From contig NZ_WTUY01000005.1 of assembly GCF_009882945.1 (NCBI RefSeq), positions 661,863 to 725,862 of the forward strand: 64,000 nt of DNA. Reading direction: 5' to 3'. The notes below the pieces were generated by a model. That model made no database searches and was not told the origin of the DNA. It worked only from the letters and a program-made list of their open reading frames with translations. Below are positions 2,909 through 57,245 of the stretch, in pieces. Within the stretch, counting starts at the first letter, position 1; each line of letters begins with the position of its first letter. A program made the position numbers and the translations under genes. Source of the DNA: Alcanivorax sp. DP30. GTDB taxonomy: Bacteria; Pseudomonadota; Gammaproteobacteria; Pseudomonadales; Alcanivoracaceae.

Positions 2909-3248
2909 GGTTGTCTCCGTACGCATGCTTGTTGTTATTGCATTAAGAAGTAGCACGCTAGCGCAGCACTGGGGAGGGCTCCAGCGCAGGGGGTGGCGGC
3001 GTTTGGGCAACCATCACAAAAATATGTCAGGGAGATATGAAAGGAATGCCTGATGCCTGGTTTCGTTCCGGGTCCGTGCTTAGGAGGCTCGAACAGTTGA
3101 AAGCTAAAAGTTGAAACGCGAGTCACAGGCTGTGTCACCTGAAGATTTGGACTCCGCGCTGCATGGAATTACAGGGCGGGCAAAGCTCCTCAGGACAAGG
3201 TGCCATCGCCCGCACTTTTTAATTTTCAGCGTTAAACTTTCAACTCTG
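2909..3248. other. 340-bp intergenic region with heptad arms
   Basis: Lies between the first binding-protein copy and the end of yciK. I see no gene. It holds a period-7 array at 3095-3115 (AGTTGAA, AGCTAAA, AGTTGAA) and its inverted counterpart at 3225-3245 (TTCAGCG, TTAAACT, TTCAACT), plus GCCTGAT, GCCTGGT at 3048-3061. The promoter of the minus-strand binding-protein run should lie in 2920-3000, but no clear boxes were recognised. Confidence 0.5.
3095..3245. repeat. Inverted heptad arrays (AGTTGAA type)
   Basis: Three adjacent heptamers on one side (3095-3115) and three on the other (3225-3245) in inverted orientation; AGTTGAA at 3095 is the exact complement of TTCAACT at 3239. They flank about 110 bp next to the 3' end of yciK. 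Confidence 0.6.
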
Positions 3249-4834: not shown

Positions 4835-4892
4835 GCTGCGAGTTTCGAGTTGCGAAGATCCAAACCGGTTTTGTCTTTCGAAACTCGTCACT
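4835..4892. repeat. Short heptad arms (GTTTCGA type)
   Basis: GCTGCGA, GTTTCGA, GTTGCGA in tandem at 4835-4855, with an inverted counterpart at 4875-4892 whose complement reads GTGACGA then GTTTCGA. A shorter member of the period-7 family, lying between ubiG and mupP. Confidence 0.5.
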
Positions 4893-4904
4893 GTTTCTTT
4901 CCTG

Positions 4905-4974
4905 CTGTGGGAGCTTGCCTGCAAGCGATATAGGCCTGGCCAGGCAGGAATCGCTTGCAGGCAAGCTCCCACAG
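4905..4974. repeat. REPIN-like inverted pair (TGTGGGAGC type)
   Basis: Two 25-base arms (4905-4929 and 4950-4974) are perfect inverted copies starting CTGTGGGAGCTTGCCTGC, each also internally palindromic (GCTTGCCTGCAAGC). The 20-base spacer holds CCTGGCCAGG. It lies six bases after the ubiG stop codon on the transcribed strand. This is the layout of Pseudomonas REP doublets. Confidence 0.85.
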
Positions 4975-4979
4975 GGAAT

Positions 4980-5699
4980 TCAATCCCCCTTGCGGGCGTA
5001 CATCAGGTAATTCACCGATACATCCCGGTTAAGCTTGTACACTTGGGTCAGCGGGTTGTAGACCATGCCGGTGGTGTCCTGCACATCCAGGGCTGCATCC
5101 CGGGCCCAGCCAGCCAGTTCTGAGGGTTTGATCAGTTTGGCGTATTCGTGGGTGCCGCGGGGCAGAAGACGCAGCACATATTCGGCGCCGACAATGGCAA
5201 ACATGAAGGCCTTGGGGTTGCGGTTGATGGTGCTGAAAAAAACATGGCCGCCAGGTTTTACCAGGGTGGCGCAGGCGCGGATCACGGAAGAAGGATCCGG
5301 CACATGCTCAAGCATTTCCAGGCACGTGACAACGTCGTACTGGCCGGCACGTTCCTCGGCAATTTTTTCCGCCGGCGTCTGCAAGTATTCCACTTCCACG
5401 CCAGCCTGCTCGGCATGAATCCGGGCCACCGCCAGCGGCGCTTCACCCATGTCGATGCCGGTCACGTCTGCGCCCCGGCGGGCCATGCCTTCGGACAGCA
5501 GGCCGCCACCGCAACCGATGTCGATGACTTTCTTGCCCGGCAGGCTGACACGCTCGTCGATATAGTTGAGGCGCAGCGGGTTGATGTCGTGCAGCGGACG
5601 GAACTGGGAGTTCGGATCCCACCACTGTTCGGCCAGGGCGTTGAACTTGGCAATTTCCCCGGCATCTACATTCGGTACGCTATGTTGTGTATCAGTCAC
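4980..5699 (-). CDS. ubiG: Ubiquinone biosynthesis O-methyltransferase UbiG
   Basis: 239 residues, matching the usual 240. It methylates two hydroxyl groups of the quinone head group during ubiquinone synthesis, using S-adenosylmethionine. Visible are the UbiG N-terminal block [20 protein letters not shown], the SAM loop [16 protein letters not shown], and [12 protein letters not shown] choose the GTG at 5699 ([10 protein letters not shown]) because GGAG is properly spaced there and it overlaps the upstream stop by a few bases; starting at 5762 would read far into the preceding gene. Translationally coupled to the amidohydrolase gene. Confidence 0.92.
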
Positions 5700-12500: not shown

Positions 12501-12507
12501 AATCCAG

Positions 12508-12578
12508 GTCTGACGTCGGAGGTCTGACGTCGGACGCTTTGCGGTTTTGCGTCAGACGTCCGACTTCAGACGTCTGAC
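12508..12578. repeat. Heptad hairpin (GTCTGAC/GTCGGAC type)
   Basis: Four tandem heptamers at 12508-12535 (GTCTGAC, GTCGGAG, GTCTGAC, GTCGGAC), a 15-base spacer, then four in inverted order at 12551-12578 (GTCAGAC, GTCCGAC, TTCAGAC, GTCTGAC). It makes a long, nearly perfect hairpin between pheA and hisC. Confidence 0.8.
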
Positions 12579-12637
12579 CCCGATCAGATAACCCCGGTGG
12601 CCAGGGTTGGCAACCCGGGGCAAAGGGAGCTCACACC

Positions 12638-20493: not shown

Positions 20494-20880
20494 AGCTGTG
20501 AGCCATGAGCTATCAGCTGTGAGCTTCTAGCCAGGCTCGACTGGATTGGTATAGGCCTAAAGGTCCTGATTTCCTCGGCCCTTCTACAAAGCTGCTGTAG
20601 GAGTTCCCTTCCAGGGGACGAACCGTGCGAAGCACGGAATCGACCGCTGGGCGATCAGACATTTCCGGGCTCGACAGGCCAAGAAAGAATGATCTCCCTT
20701 CGGTCGCCTCGCTACGCTCGGTTCGCGGCCGAACGTCCGCTCCTACAGTGGGCTGTCCCCTCTTCACCTTGGCATTTCCGACCTGCAAAGCCCTGCTCCT
20801 CAGCAGTTGTGCGCGGCCACTACCCGGTCAGCGGCCGCATAATCTTCCCCGCGTTGCAGCTTGTAGCTTGAAGCTTGCCG
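20494..20880. repeat. Inverted heptad arrays (AGCTNNN type) around a REPIN
   Basis: Left arm 20494-20535: AGCTGTG, AGCCATG, AGCTATC, AGCTGTG, AGCTTCT, AGCCAGG. Right arm 20854-20880: TTGCAGC, TTGTAGC, TTGAAGC, TTGCCG, whose complement reads AGCTTCA, AGCTACA, AGCTGCA. Period 7 is exact in both arms. Confidence 0.7.
20595..20748. repeat. Long REPIN-like pair (TGTAGGAGT ... CTCCTACAG)
   Basis: Outer ends CTGTAGGAG (20595) and CTCCTACAG (ending 20748) are inverted, with GACGAACC on the left and GGTTCGCGGCC on the right also inverted. The spacer is about 90 bp, longer than in the other REPIN pairs here, and includes GTGCGAAGCAC and CGCTACGCTCGG. Confidence 0.6.
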
Positions 20881-25462: not shown

Positions 25463-25624
25463 AGCTGCAAGCAACAAGCCTCAAGCTGCAAGGCGAAATT
25501 GAGGCCGGGTGTTATTTCAACATCTGTGCCCGCGCACAGAGTCAGTGCGCGGAACAAAATAGTGAAAATGGCACGACATAACGCGCGCCTTGTAGCTTGA
25601 GGCTTGCAGCTTGAAGCTTGAAGC
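25463..25624. repeat. Inverted heptad arrays (AGCTGCA / TTGAAGC type)
   Basis: Left arm 25463-25490: AGCTGCA, AGCAACA, AGCCTCA, AGCTGCA. Right arm 25590-25624: TTGTAGC, TTGAGGC, TTGCAGC, TTGAAGC, TTGAAGC, which is the inverted form of the same unit. It fills most of the 297-bp gap between the divergent uup and fatty acid hydroxylase genes. Confidence 0.8.
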
Positions 25625-25721
25625 TGTTCTTGAACGCGCAGTGTAGCAGCTTGTTACGGCCCTGTACTGGCACATTTGCGGTGTAGTCAGGCAGGCTTTT
25701 GGGGAATGGAGGAGGGAACCG

Positions 25722-26924: not shown

Positions 26925-27332
26925 ATGGAAGACGTAATCGAACTGCTGCGCGAACGCCACGACGGTGGCCTTGTAGCTCTGGAGTTACCCGATGAAGACC
27001 GACTGGTTGAGATCGAAGAGCAGCTGCTGATTTCCCTGCCCGGGGACTACAAGGAGTTCCTGCTTAATGCCAGCGACATCGTCTGCGGCAGCCTCGAACC
27101 GGCCACCGTCATGGACGACTACGCCCACAACTTCCTCCCGGAAATGGCCGCCAACGCCTGGGACCAGGGAATGCCTCGCTACCTGATCCCCGTCTGCGAA
27201 ACCGCCAACGGCATCTACGCCATGTCACAGGAAGGCGAAGTCCTGCTGTGGGAGCCGGGTAGCGGCATCAATGAAGAAGAGGTGTGGGGGAGTATCTGGC
27301 AGTGGGCTCGTGAGGTTTGGCTGGAAAGTTAA
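26925..27332 (+). CDS. SMI1/KNR4 (SUKH)-family protein
   Basis: 135 residues. SUKH-type features: IEEQLLISLPGDYKEFLLNASD near residues 30-50, YLIPVCETANGIYAMSQEGEVLLWEPG, and the acidic C-terminus. SUKH proteins are often immunity proteins against secreted nuclease toxins, though many stand alone with unknown roles. No toxin gene is adjacent here, so I leave the function open. Confidence 0.75.
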   Translation: MEDVIELLRERHDGGLVALELPDEDRLVEIEEQLLISLPGDYKEFLLNASDIVCGSLEPATVMDDYAHNFLPEMAANAWDQGMPRYLIPVCETANGIYAMSQEGEVLLWEPGSGINEEEVWGSIWQWAREVWLES

Positions 27333-27389
27333 TGAATAGTTAATAATGAATAATTAATAGCTAAACCCCAAACCTTGCTGACGAAGCCG

Positions 27390-27464
27390 CTGTAGGAGCT
27401 CCTCTCGAGGTGCGAACCCGAGCCCAGGCGAGGAAGTCTGTGGGAGCGGGCGTTCGACTGCGAT
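27390..27464. repeat. Two unpaired REP-like units
   Basis: CTGTAGGAGCTCCTCTCGAG at 27390 (close to the left arm of the gyrA REPIN) and CTGTGGGAGCGGGCGTTCG at 27438 lie in the same orientation, not as an inverted pair. They are between the SUKH gene and the TrmY gene. Confidence 0.6.
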
Positions 27465-34233: not shown

Positions 34234-34585
34234 CGGCGGGCCTCGTTGGTCTCGCTGCCACTGGTGGTGGTGCGCTGATCCCCGTGCGTAATGGGTGCCT
34301 GGCGAAAGTGTGGCCGGGCTGGCAAGGGGTGGGTTAAAGGTGTCTTCATTGGATGCTATGACATGCCGGTTGGCCAGTGAATTAGACTAAAGTCCTTGGG
34401 ATTCGCAAGGGTATAAGCGGAGCTAAAACAAAGTGTGGAATTCTGTTTATTCCTGGGCGGGGAGAGGAGGGGCTGAGAGTTGCGAGGGGCGAATTGCGAG
34501 TTGCGAGTTGCGGTAGTTACCGTCAATGCAGACCGCCGATCTGTCCGCCACTATAAGACCACATTCAGAATAACAGAGGCCAACC
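34234..34585. other. 352-bp divergent intergenic region
   Basis: Between prpE (minus) and the ABM gene (plus). No gene seen. It holds the heptad array 34477-34511. On the minus strand TTGCGA (around 34402-34407) with CTAATT 17 bases on is a weak promoter candidate for prpE. Confidence 0.45.
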
Positions 34586-34888
34586 ATGTACATCGCCATG
34601 AACCGCTTCAAGATCAAACCCGGTTGTGAGCAGGACTTTATCGAAATCTGGAAGGGACGTGACACCTACCTGCAGGAGGTGCCGGGATTCAAGGAATTCC
34701 ATTTGCTACAGGGGCCGGCCAATGAGGAGTACACCTTGTTTTCGTCTCATGCGGGGTGGGAATCGAAGGGCGCCTTTGAGGGCTGGACCAAATCCGAGGC
34801 GTTTCGCAAGGCACACGCCAATGCGGGTGCGCGACGGGATATCTACATGGGCCCGCCGCAGCTGGAGTGTTTTGAGGTGGTGTTGTAG
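34586..34888 (+). CDS. Antibiotic biosynthesis monooxygenase (ABM) domain protein
   Basis: 100 residues, a single ferredoxin-like ABM domain: MYIAMNRFKIKPGCEQDFIE, FKEFHLLQGP, WESKGAFEGWTKSEAFRKAH. Proteins of this size act as dimers; some degrade haem (IsdG/HmoB type) and others oxidise quinols or have no known activity. The conserved WESKGAFEGWTKSEAF block is typical of the haem-oxygenase-like branch, but I cannot assign haem binding from it. Confidence 0.8.
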   Translation: MYIAMNRFKIKPGCEQDFIEIWKGRDTYLQEVPGFKEFHLLQGPANEEYTLFSSHAGWESKGAFEGWTKSEAFRKAHANAGARRDIYMGPPQLECFEVVL

Positions 34889-34891
34889 GAC

Positions 34892-34926
34892 GCCAGATGC
34901 CAGATGCCAGATGCTGGACGCCTGAT
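34892..34926. repeat. Direct heptad array (GCCAGAT type)
   Basis: GCCAGAT three times in a row, then GCTGGAC and GCCTGAT, starting four bases after the ABM gene stop. I found no clear inverted arm close by; it may be half of an element. Confidence 0.65.
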
Positions 34927-34950
34927 GCGGGAAATGTCGGGATTTCCTCC

Positions 34951-35096
34951 CGTAGGAGCGGAGGTTCCACCGCGATAGGCGCAACGCGCTTTGGTTCCTT
35001 AATGCTTTTGCTTTTTCTCGCAGCTCGAGGCTCGTAGCTCGCCGCGGTTTTTCCTCGCCAGGGCTCGGATCGCGCCGCGAGCGACGCTCCTACAGG
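34951..35096. repeat. REPIN-like pair with a long spacer
   Basis: CGTAGGAGCGGAGGTTCCACC near 34951 and, inverted, GCCGCGAGCGACGCTCCTAC ending near 35094. The arms match only at the TAGGAGC ends and CGCGAT, and the spacer contains the heptad array at 35017-35044. Confidence 0.5.
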
Positions 35097-35123
35097 GGGG
35101 CTTGTGGTTAGTCTGCTCGTGAT

Positions 35124-48255: not shown

Positions 48256-48368
48256 GCTGGAAGCCAGACGCCTGGAGCCAATAATCAACAAATGGGTTGC
48301 AGACAATGAGGATAAAGGGGGACCGCGTTCTCCTCCAACCGTTAGCCTGGTTTGTTCTGGCGTCCGGC
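48256..48368. repeat. Heptad arms (GCCAGAC type) in the selenium operon
   Basis: GCTGGAA, GCCAGAC, GCCTGGA at 48256-48276, and inverted TTCTGGC, GTCCGGC at 48355-48368. They fill the 138-bp gap between the permease and PhzF genes. Confidence 0.5.
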
Positions 48369-56684: not shown

Positions 56685-56870
56685 CGCGTTGCCTCCTGAT
56701 TGGGTGTCCAGAAAAGCACTGTTGTCCTTTTCATTTCTGAGGCATTGGGCGTGGGCTTTCAATGCTTTTTTGCCTGTTTTTTGATCAGTGTCATGGGTCT
56801 GGGTGGTTGTTGCCTGGCGGATTCAGAGCGCAAGATGGGGAGACACTTCGCGACAGAAAGGAGAGCTGTC

Positions 56871-57086
56871 ATGTCAGACCATCATGTATACAAGAAGGTG
56901 GAGTTGGTAGGCTCATCAAAGAAGAGCATTGAGGATGCCATCGAGAATGCCCTGACCACAGCCAGTGAAAGCCTGGAACTCACCGAATGGTTCGAAGTCA
57001 CTGAAACCCGAGGTCACATCGTCGATGGCAAGGTGGGGCACTATCAGGTGTGTCTGAAAGTAGGGTTCCGGATTTCCGGATCCTGA
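56871..57086 (+). CDS. Dodecin
   Basis: 71 residues from ATG 56871 (AAAGGAGAGCTGTC upstream). Dodecin pattern: HVYKKVELVGSSKKSIEDAI, WFEVTETRGHIVDGKVGHYQV, LKVGFRI. Twelve copies make a hollow sphere that stores or buffers flavins (and CoA in some species). Followed by a bidirectional terminator. Confidence 0.93.
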   Translation: MSDHHVYKKVELVGSSKKSIEDAIENALTTASESLELTEWFEVTETRGHIVDGKVGHYQVCLKVGFRISGS

Positions 57087-57091
57087 GCAGC

Positions 57092-57240
57092 AGCTACAAG
57101 CTACAAGCCGCAAGCTACAAGGAATAAAAAAACCGCGCCAAATGGCGCGGTTTTCTTGGCGTTTGCAGCGCGAGGCATTAGCCGGTCAGTTTGTTGCCAG
57201 CCTGGCCTCGTGTTGCAGCTTGTAGCTTGAAGCTTGCTGC
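57092..57240. repeat. Inverted heptad arrays around a terminator (AGCTACA type)
   Basis: Left arm 57092-57119: AGCTACA, AGCTACA, AGCCGCA, AGCTACA. Right arm 57213-57240: TTGCAGC, TTGTAGC, TTGAAGC, TTGCTGC. They enclose the shared terminator of dodecin and deaD. Confidence 0.8.
57126..57154 (+). terminator. Bidirectional terminator between dodecin and deaD
   Basis: An A run, AACCGCGCC (57131-57139), AAAT loop, GGCGCGGTT (57144-57152) and TTC. It serves the plus-strand dodecin and, read on the minus strand with its own T run, deaD. Confidence 0.85.
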
Positions 57241-57245
57241 TGTGT

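Follow-up and report, generated by a model that had tools for sequence, protein, structure and literature searches.

What are the short tandem heptads that face one another in intergenic DNA of Alcanivorax sp. DP30, a marine bacterium related to oil-degrading species? The question is posed by a gap at positions 25463-25624 of the window, the whole 64-kb stretch of DNA analysed here (C23:661863-725862 of a genome of 3.62 Mb in 24 contigs; C, G and L numbers are our handles for contigs, genomes and loci). The element in this gap matches the description in the initial annotation, with four units facing five inverted ones:

25463..25495, plus strand: left arm, AGCTGCA AGCAACA AGCCTCA AGCTGCA (heptads 25463-25490) followed by an inner AGGCG; TRF period 7
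25496..25588, no strand: core of 93 bp, with homologous cores in L010, L011, L017 and G007 (L109)
25530..25552, no strand: central palindrome, CCGCGCAC-AGAGTCA-GTGCGCGG, at 0.49 of the core; the mid-core motif of long-core elements
25589..25629, minus strand: right arm, five inverted units (heptads 25589-25625)

Facing arrays in the window

Other arrays in the window were located as follows:

57087..57124, plus strand: second CAAGCTN element, left arm, immediately 3' of a dodecin-family gene's stop codon (ORF 56700-57086)
57125..57208, no strand: core of this element, containing a terminator-like hairpin, AAAACCGCGCC-AAAT-GGCGCGGTTTT
57209..57242, minus strand: right arm of this element, adjoining the end of a convergent DEAD-box helicase gene
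12506..12537, plus strand: left arm of a short-loop GTCNGAC element, lying 5 nt beyond the stop codon that ends a chorismate mutase/prephenate dehydratase gene
12549..12579, minus strand: right arm of the GTCNGAC element, from the paired-array test
3095..3116, plus strand: left arm of an AAGTTNA element, followed by a 108-bp core
3225..3245, minus strand: right arm of the AAGTTNA element, from the paired-array test
4835..4857, plus strand: left arm of a short CGAGNNN element, under the mechanical threshold and clear by eye in the orthologues in G007 and G014
4875..4893, minus strand: right arm of the short CGAGNNN element, likewise under the threshold and clear by eye in G007 and G014
20494..20525, plus strand: left heptad array of AGCTNTG/AGCTATC units, at most 5 nt from a stop codon and followed by REP-like sequence
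20854..20877, minus strand: inverted array of CAAGCTN units, probably the right arm of an element that has been disrupted
27330..27360, plus strand: lone arm of ATANTNA type that overlaps a stop codon (27330-27332)

Eight arrays, including the given one, had been named in the initial annotation as sharing one inverted design, and this held in part. Four of the eight (25463, 12506, 57087 and 3095) passed the mechanical paired-array test. Those at 4835 and 48256 were weak in the window; by eye, orthologues show them plainly, the array at 4835 as an evident pair in both G007 and G014, and that at 48256 in G014. For 20494, the sole likely partner is the array at 20854, ~330 bp away with REP-like sequence between. 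No partner was present within 300 bp of the array at 34477, and beyond an ORF of 100 aa comes a CTCGCAG array at 35017.

In that last region (34477-35042), a GAGTTGC array and the inverted CTCGCAG array enclose the 100-aa ORF (34586-34888), possibly as arms around a small gene. REP-like palindromes (GTAGGAGC/GTGGGAGC) share gaps with heptad arrays at 4901-4980, 20595-20660, 27385-27420 and 34950-35100. A search of the window against Rfam gave no matches over the gathering score, and a search with one long-core element gave eight matches with E values up to 5, all under the gathering score. No copies of the element at 57087-57242 were found in plasmids.

Abundance and period

We scored period-7 arrays with an inverted partner within 300 bp and at least 70% similarity in a systematic 684-kb sample from two contigs (the window, 11 stretches of C23 and 20 of C22), with one order-2 Markov sequence per stretch as a single-replicate control. 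The genome sample contained 58 facing pairs and the control none. Removal of overlaps left 52 distinct elements, 43 of which were 70-175 bp long, giving a density of ~76 per Mb and, by extrapolation, ~275 per genome. Inverted pairs at other periods in the same 684 kb numbered 7 at period 5 (13 in the Markov control), 5 at period 6 and 1 each at periods 9 and 14, with none at period 8 or periods 10-13. Pairs of period-7 arrays pointing in the same direction numbered 14, compared with the 58 inverted pairs. A strict autocorrelation scan of the window (periods 3-24, at least 17 of 21 matches) returned clusters at periods 7 (5), 14 (5) and 9 (1), and none at any other period in that range.

The constant period of 7 and the inverted arms, which the initial annotation had taken to be the conserved feature, were thus borne out, and the genome sample gave the opposite of a chance-level frequency. 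Chance or generic low complexity is practically excluded as the source of the arrays. Pairs at chance level do occur in AT-rich or GC-rich DNA of other genomes, but the count of 58 against 0, with the other periods flat, refutes chance here.

Long identical AGCTACA arrays were also seen in this genome (G000) at C15:1-87, C18:1-52 and C16:32473-32545. Their location at the starts of C15 and C18 suggests that the assembly breaks at expanded arms.

Placement behind stop codons

Using gene calls from a simple codon-usage caller, we found that none of the 52 elements shared more than 60 bp with a called gene. Tandem genes flanked 31 elements, convergent genes 14 and divergent genes 6 (the given element among them), and one context was undetermined; background gaps of at least 150 bp comprised 124 tandem, 48 convergent and 57 divergent ones, so that divergent gaps were under-used (Fisher p 0.043). 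The 31 tandem elements began a median of 3 nt past the upstream stop codon, compared with a mean of 32 nt for random placement (0 of 2000 placements as low), and for 24 of them the upstream stop was nearer than the downstream start. Among the 14 convergent elements, nine abutted both stop codons within 14 nt. The class is real, intergenic and abundant, and its members follow stop codons directly more often than expected from random placement.

Integron attC sites were considered, as the elements follow stop codons, and were set aside because the neighbours are ordinary-looking genes (amino-acid kinase, RF-1 domain and TauE families). The arms also do not fit what we take to be the integron R-box consensus.

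Unit families and element anatomy

To the sample we added nine further stretches chosen for their arrays, which gave 65 elements for anatomy. Motif counts assigned these to families: CAAGCTN (F1, 25), CGAGNNN (F5, 14), ATANTNA (F3, 11), GTCNGAC (F4, 9) and AAGTTNA (F2, 4), with two singletons. The earlier proposal that only the geometry is kept and not the sequence does not stand in this form, since the units fall into families with about four to six well-conserved positions of seven and a mid-core motif is common. The part of it that held is that more than one unrelated unit occurs and that the arrays are not a single REP class.

In F1 units, each of positions 1-4 is one base in at least 90% of cases, and the last position is other than C in 181 of 182 units. 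F1 arms contained three units recognised in frame in 21 cases, four in 17, five in six, two in four, and one and 12 in one case each. By a simple motif count, these arms read inward in 22 of 25 pairs; two of the three exceptions tie in the right arm, at palindromic AGCT-type stretches, and the third (L189:863) has an irregular left arm. F1 cores were 84-100 bp long in 19 of 25 elements. CCGCG or CGCGG occurred in the middle third of the core in 26 of 28 long-core elements from three families (2.8 when shuffled), and 17 of the 28 carried a facing CCGCG...CGCGG pair at mid-core (0.1 when shuffled).

An element thus usually consists of two to five degenerate inward heptads, often a CGCG-type inner border, a core, and the same parts reversed. 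Cores are shorter in the GTCNGAC and CGAGNNN types than in the CAAGCTN type. Stems within the core differed between families: the F1 core stem beat all 20 shuffles in just 9 of the 24 cores shown, and F1 central hairpins mostly had no T-run, whereas 7 of 11 F3 cores had a stem score of at least 29, above all of their own shuffles, and several of these had terminator-like A and T flanks. We rejected the idea that the whole element is a decayed palindrome, as the complementarity of the two core flanks was 0.378 within and 0.362 between elements (p 0.13, n 26).

Folding and coupling between arms

Elements folded better than shuffled sequences on both strands, and the arms paired in 54 of 61 predictions. 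Mean fold z-scores were -6.2 for F1, -9.3 for F3, -5.2 for F4 and F5, and -4.0 for F2. Whole arms were more similar within than between elements in F5 (0.786/0.681, p 0.0002) and weakly so in F1 (0.822/0.801, p 0.013) and F3 (0.854/0.818, p 0.02), and not in F4 (0.797/0.825, p 0.97). The variable base of facing F1 units agreed in 0.34 of cases, compared with 0.41 for shuffled partners. Together these values indicate that the arms agree in type and less in detail, and the uncoupled variable bases indicate that recent copying from arm to arm is not dominant in F1.

The initial annotation had offered selection on an extruded or RNA hairpin as one explanation. If an RNA or DNA hairpin were itself under selection, the arms would be kept complementary; this fits the strong z-scores on both strands and the greater likeness of arms within F5 elements. 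An alignment of five orthologues contained five base pairs changed on both sides (1.5 expected by shuffling), which also fits; all five are single cells that can be read as coming from one sequence, L011. Base-by-base selection on facing units is not supported at the F1 variable position, F4 shows no coupling, and a hairpin does not require a period of 7. We consider this explanation rather unlikely.

Exchange of cores and units between related genomes

We read several orthologous gaps by eye. Judged by the neighbouring fatty-acid-hydroxylase gene, the closest relatives, at 93-98% identity, are Alcanivorax species and metagenome bins. Among 12 Alcanivorax-group sequences, this gap holds five core lineages whose mutual similarity does not exceed the background of other loci, and every core lineage has its own arm type on both sides. 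Apart from its homologues in L010, L011, L017 and G007, the core of the given element showed no detectable similarity to other species' cores in this gap. L011 has the same core as the window (77% over 91 bp), with CAAG units altered towards CGAG in both arms. Aligning five orthologues showed five right-arm units in the window and four in the other four sequences, and three left-arm units in L010 instead of four. Unit number and arm sequence thus both vary between orthologous gaps, a comparison that the initial annotation had proposed.

Across related species, one gap may hold an element, a different element, a REP pair or none of these. The gap at 4835 carries the short CGAG elements in the window, G007 and G014, an AAGTTNA element in G006, a CAAGTTN element in G004, REP-like sequence alone in G012 and only 32 bp in G001; its counterpart in G008 was not found. 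At 27330, where the window has a lone arm, L009 and L010 have full elements whose right arms consist of 8 and 13 identical units, respectively. A further hairpin repeat, GGCGGAxATGGCC...CATTTCCGCCCTACG, was noticed by eye at L103:10976-11010 and in gaps of several Alcanivorax genomes.

Two core inversions were seen. L014 and L082 match as reverse complements over 91 bp at gap 25463 (94.5%), and G010/G001 match G003/G015 in the same manner over 93-101 bp (67-75%) in the gap 5' of an amino-acid-kinase gene that we take to be argB. Orientation was kept in 68 orthologous core pairs, many of them redundant. Core deletions with fused arms were recognised by eye in G006 at gap 3095, and in our genome and G016 at the argB 5' gap.

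The argB locus, read in 17 genomes, also gave the clearest case of copying. G012 has a near-identical element on either side of this gene, with cores 89% identical. Compared with the cores of G008 and G010 (96% identical to each other), the 3'-side core of G012 reaches 76%, and a further match of 80% lies elsewhere in the G012 genome. The greater likeness within G012 points to recent copying or conversion between the two gaps in this line. As the argB 5'-gap core of G008 is also related (77%), the case could be one of conversion between older copies. On the 3' side of argB, reading by eye identified a terminator-like hairpin in G002 and G006, a REP pair in G003, G015 and G016, and a heptad element in most others. 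Weaker neighbouring pairs occur in our genome beside TauE-family and RF-1-domain genes (L103, 79%; L187, 77%), and weaker core similarities connect L181, L188 and L189.

Comparison between genomes shows inverted and deleted cores, altered units, and copying or conversion; how these arise in molecular terms, and a role at gene 3' ends, we infer. We think it somewhat more probable than its opposite that the arrays are the arms of miniature palindromic intergenic repeats, with the heptad arms acting as recombination ends. The arms would provide short inverted homologies. Recombination, or template switching during replication, between the arms of one element would flip or remove its core, and the same events between elements would overwrite one with another. 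Slippage and conversion would even out the drift of units inside a family. More weakly, a hairpin right behind a gene may serve as a putative 3' end or terminator, so that the element would be tolerated or kept. This putative role is suggested by the alternation of elements with terminator-like hairpins and REP pairs in orthologous gaps; it makes little sense for the 6 of 52 elements between divergent genes. Against recombination between arms, inversions number just two and strong copying cases one, set beside the 68 core pairs of unchanged orientation, and the likeness of F4 arms within an element does not exceed that between elements. Replacement could also come about by import of a whole gap from another species.

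The earlier suggestion that a process copies and diversifies short units receives partial support. Differences of single 7-bp units, the identical copies at 27330 and the near-identical elements flanking one gene agree with it.

A classical MITE, a non-autonomous element with terminal inverted repeats built of heptads and moved in trans by a transposase, is quite unlikely in our judgement. The elements do have terminal inverted repeats, are multi-copy, differ in presence and absence, and occur as near-identical elements in neighbouring gaps, and our genome has three matches to the Y1 transposase family PF01797 (G304 has one). This family, the sole transposase family searched, had no match in G383, which carries heptad pairs, or in G001, which has decayed heptad elements. 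Few cores matched another locus beyond their centre at E 1e-6, and replacement occurs inside the same gap borders. By eye, the compared gaps gave no clean empty site and no target-site duplication.

Relation to known repeats

ERIC, IRU and RU-1 (the last of 127 bp) are intergenic, non-coding, imperfect palindromes of ~100-170 bp with a conserved consensus and without tandem heptads. Our elements resemble them in being intergenic imperfect palindromes of ~100-170 bp and differ in having tandem heptads. The heptanucleotide repeats of cyanobacteria, known as STRR, are direct arrays.

Like REP, BIME and REPIN sequences, as far as the excerpted source describes these (PMC3733652), our elements are abundant palindromic intergenic repeats, and REP-like pairs share their gaps as separate features. 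REPs keep a palindrome of 20-40 bp with a GTAG or CGTC tag (PMC3733652, in part), whereas the arms here are several unrelated tandem heptads. In G383, a heptad carrier without a PF01797 match, a RAYT is not needed as the mover.

The closest counterpart is in Xanthomonas. The excerpts of Rehm et al. 2015 (PMC4692102) describe (GGGANTN)n heptamers with fixed and variable positions in arrays of 2 to 26 units, most commonly four. Convergent pairs number 70 in Xcc and 75 in Xac; the arrays are mostly intergenic, lie nearer to the upstream ORF (mean 28 nt) and vary in length between species. The same excerpts state that heptamer repeats are over-represented in bacterial genomes and little explained, and mention 7-bp tandem heptanucleotides in cyanobacteria (Calothrix). 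Our elements share with the Xanthomonas arrays, so described, the exact 7-bp tandem units, few per array, and the convergent, intergenic pairs behind the upstream gene. They differ in the unit, which is CAAGCTN and others here and a G-rich, quadruplex-capable unit there (GGGAATCGGGAATCGGG occurs 0 times in our genome), and in having several unit families, compared with the one unit type in the excerpted study. Beggiatoaceae TAACTGA arrays, according to the excerpts of MacGregor 2015 (PMC4679880), are intergenic, have 2-6 copies, are patchy over distant lineages, and comprise 169 direct-repeat sets and one indirect set, most just upstream of start codons; our elements, unlike these, are inverted pairs behind stop codons.

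Our literature search returned no paper on heptamer tandem repeats in Alcanivorax. On the excerpts cited, the design matches the convergent heptamer pairs of Xanthomonas and so is of a known kind; the additions are the coexistence of several unit families, the exchange of cores in fixed gaps and positions that abut stop codons.

Distribution beyond the genome

The pattern CAAGCTNCAAGCTNCAAGC was found in 3 of 369 genomes of the class: our own (103+80), G304 from another family (19+22) and G292 (0+2). GGGAATCGGGAATCGGG, the GGGAATC pattern, was found in one of the 369, G383, which has facing GGGAATC pairs of the Xanthomonas type. G304 had four facing pairs with cores of 84-118 bp in one 20-kb stretch chosen for its matches and none in a second stretch. 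Its cores have no central palindrome, which argues against a core shared across families.

We also sampled up to 20 kb of the first contig from each of 36 further genomes of the class, 0.62 Mb in total. This sample contained 11 inverted period-7 pairs, six of which belong to one composite repeat at L207, compared with three in the Markov control. Other periods gave 52 pairs at period 5 (Markov 45), 13 at period 6 (Markov 7), one at period 8 and three at period 9. These near-chance counts indicate that such pairs are not widespread at the density seen in Alcanivorax. Among relatives picked by the hydroxylase gene, near Alcanivorax loci had 13 period-7 pairs in 209 kb (three at period 5, three at period 6 and one at period 9), more distant Alcanivorax/Alloalcanivorax had four in 271 kb (seven at period 5), Moraxellaceae had three in 752 kb (37 at period 5 and nine at period 6), and Hahella/Marinobacter/Atopomonas had none in 224 kb.

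Several further heptad repeats were observed. An Acidobacteria contig has facing GGAGGCT-type period-7 arrays around a 63-bp core (L087:158-289). The unrelated genome G171 has eight matches to GGGCTAAGGGCTAAGGG, the backwards control of the GGGAATC pattern, which represent another heptad repeat. Near-identical palindromic blocks in several copies lie at L207:6774-7011, in a stretch of GC 0.68. At L138:1496-1561 in G292, an AT-rich genome of 0.4 Mb (locus GC 0.24), a TTGTAGC tandem array drifts into other heptads. IMG/VR viral contigs (L267-L346) carry at least 194 direct CAAGNNN heptad arrays in at least 80 loci, nearly all of GC 0.34-0.42, with inverted CAAG pairs in few loci among the matches listed; L267 has genes for a DNA polymerase of family A and for an exonuclease. 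A promoter-like site came next in 20 of 194 viral arrays among the matches listed, compared with 38 of 4000 random windows.

The heptads might instead be tandem sites of a putative DNA-binding protein (nucleoid, regulatory or recombinase), with paired arms forming a symmetric complex and not a hairpin. The inward reading of CAAGCTN arms, the four to six conserved and one to three variable positions per unit with the near-exclusion of one base at the end of CAAGCTN, the uncoupled facing variable bases and the frequency of promoter-like sites after the viral arrays all favour such sites. Unrelated units such as ATANTNA and GTCNGAC nevertheless stand in like positions, REP pairs and terminator-like hairpins take the place of elements in some gaps, and 174 of the 194 viral arrays among the matches listed have no promoter-like site behind them. 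We regard binding sites as an unlikely explanation on balance.

Returning to arms as recombination ends, a broader version would extend across lineages: the 7-base step itself would be read by a widespread protein or copying process, the unit sequences would be interchangeable, and the facing arrays would be recombination ends that shuffle 3'-end cassettes. We hold this to be improbable and put it forward as speculation. If the 7-base step were read in this manner, the CAAGCTN units of Alcanivorax, those of G304 with its similar core lengths, and the direct arrays of viruses would be one recognition code.

Within a single genus, the elements offer a natural experiment, with unit families side by side and with inversion, deletion, copying and replacement that can be compared in orthologous gaps. 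Why the step is seven and what moves the elements become directly testable in such gaps, and the annotation of gene 3' ends in such genomes may change.
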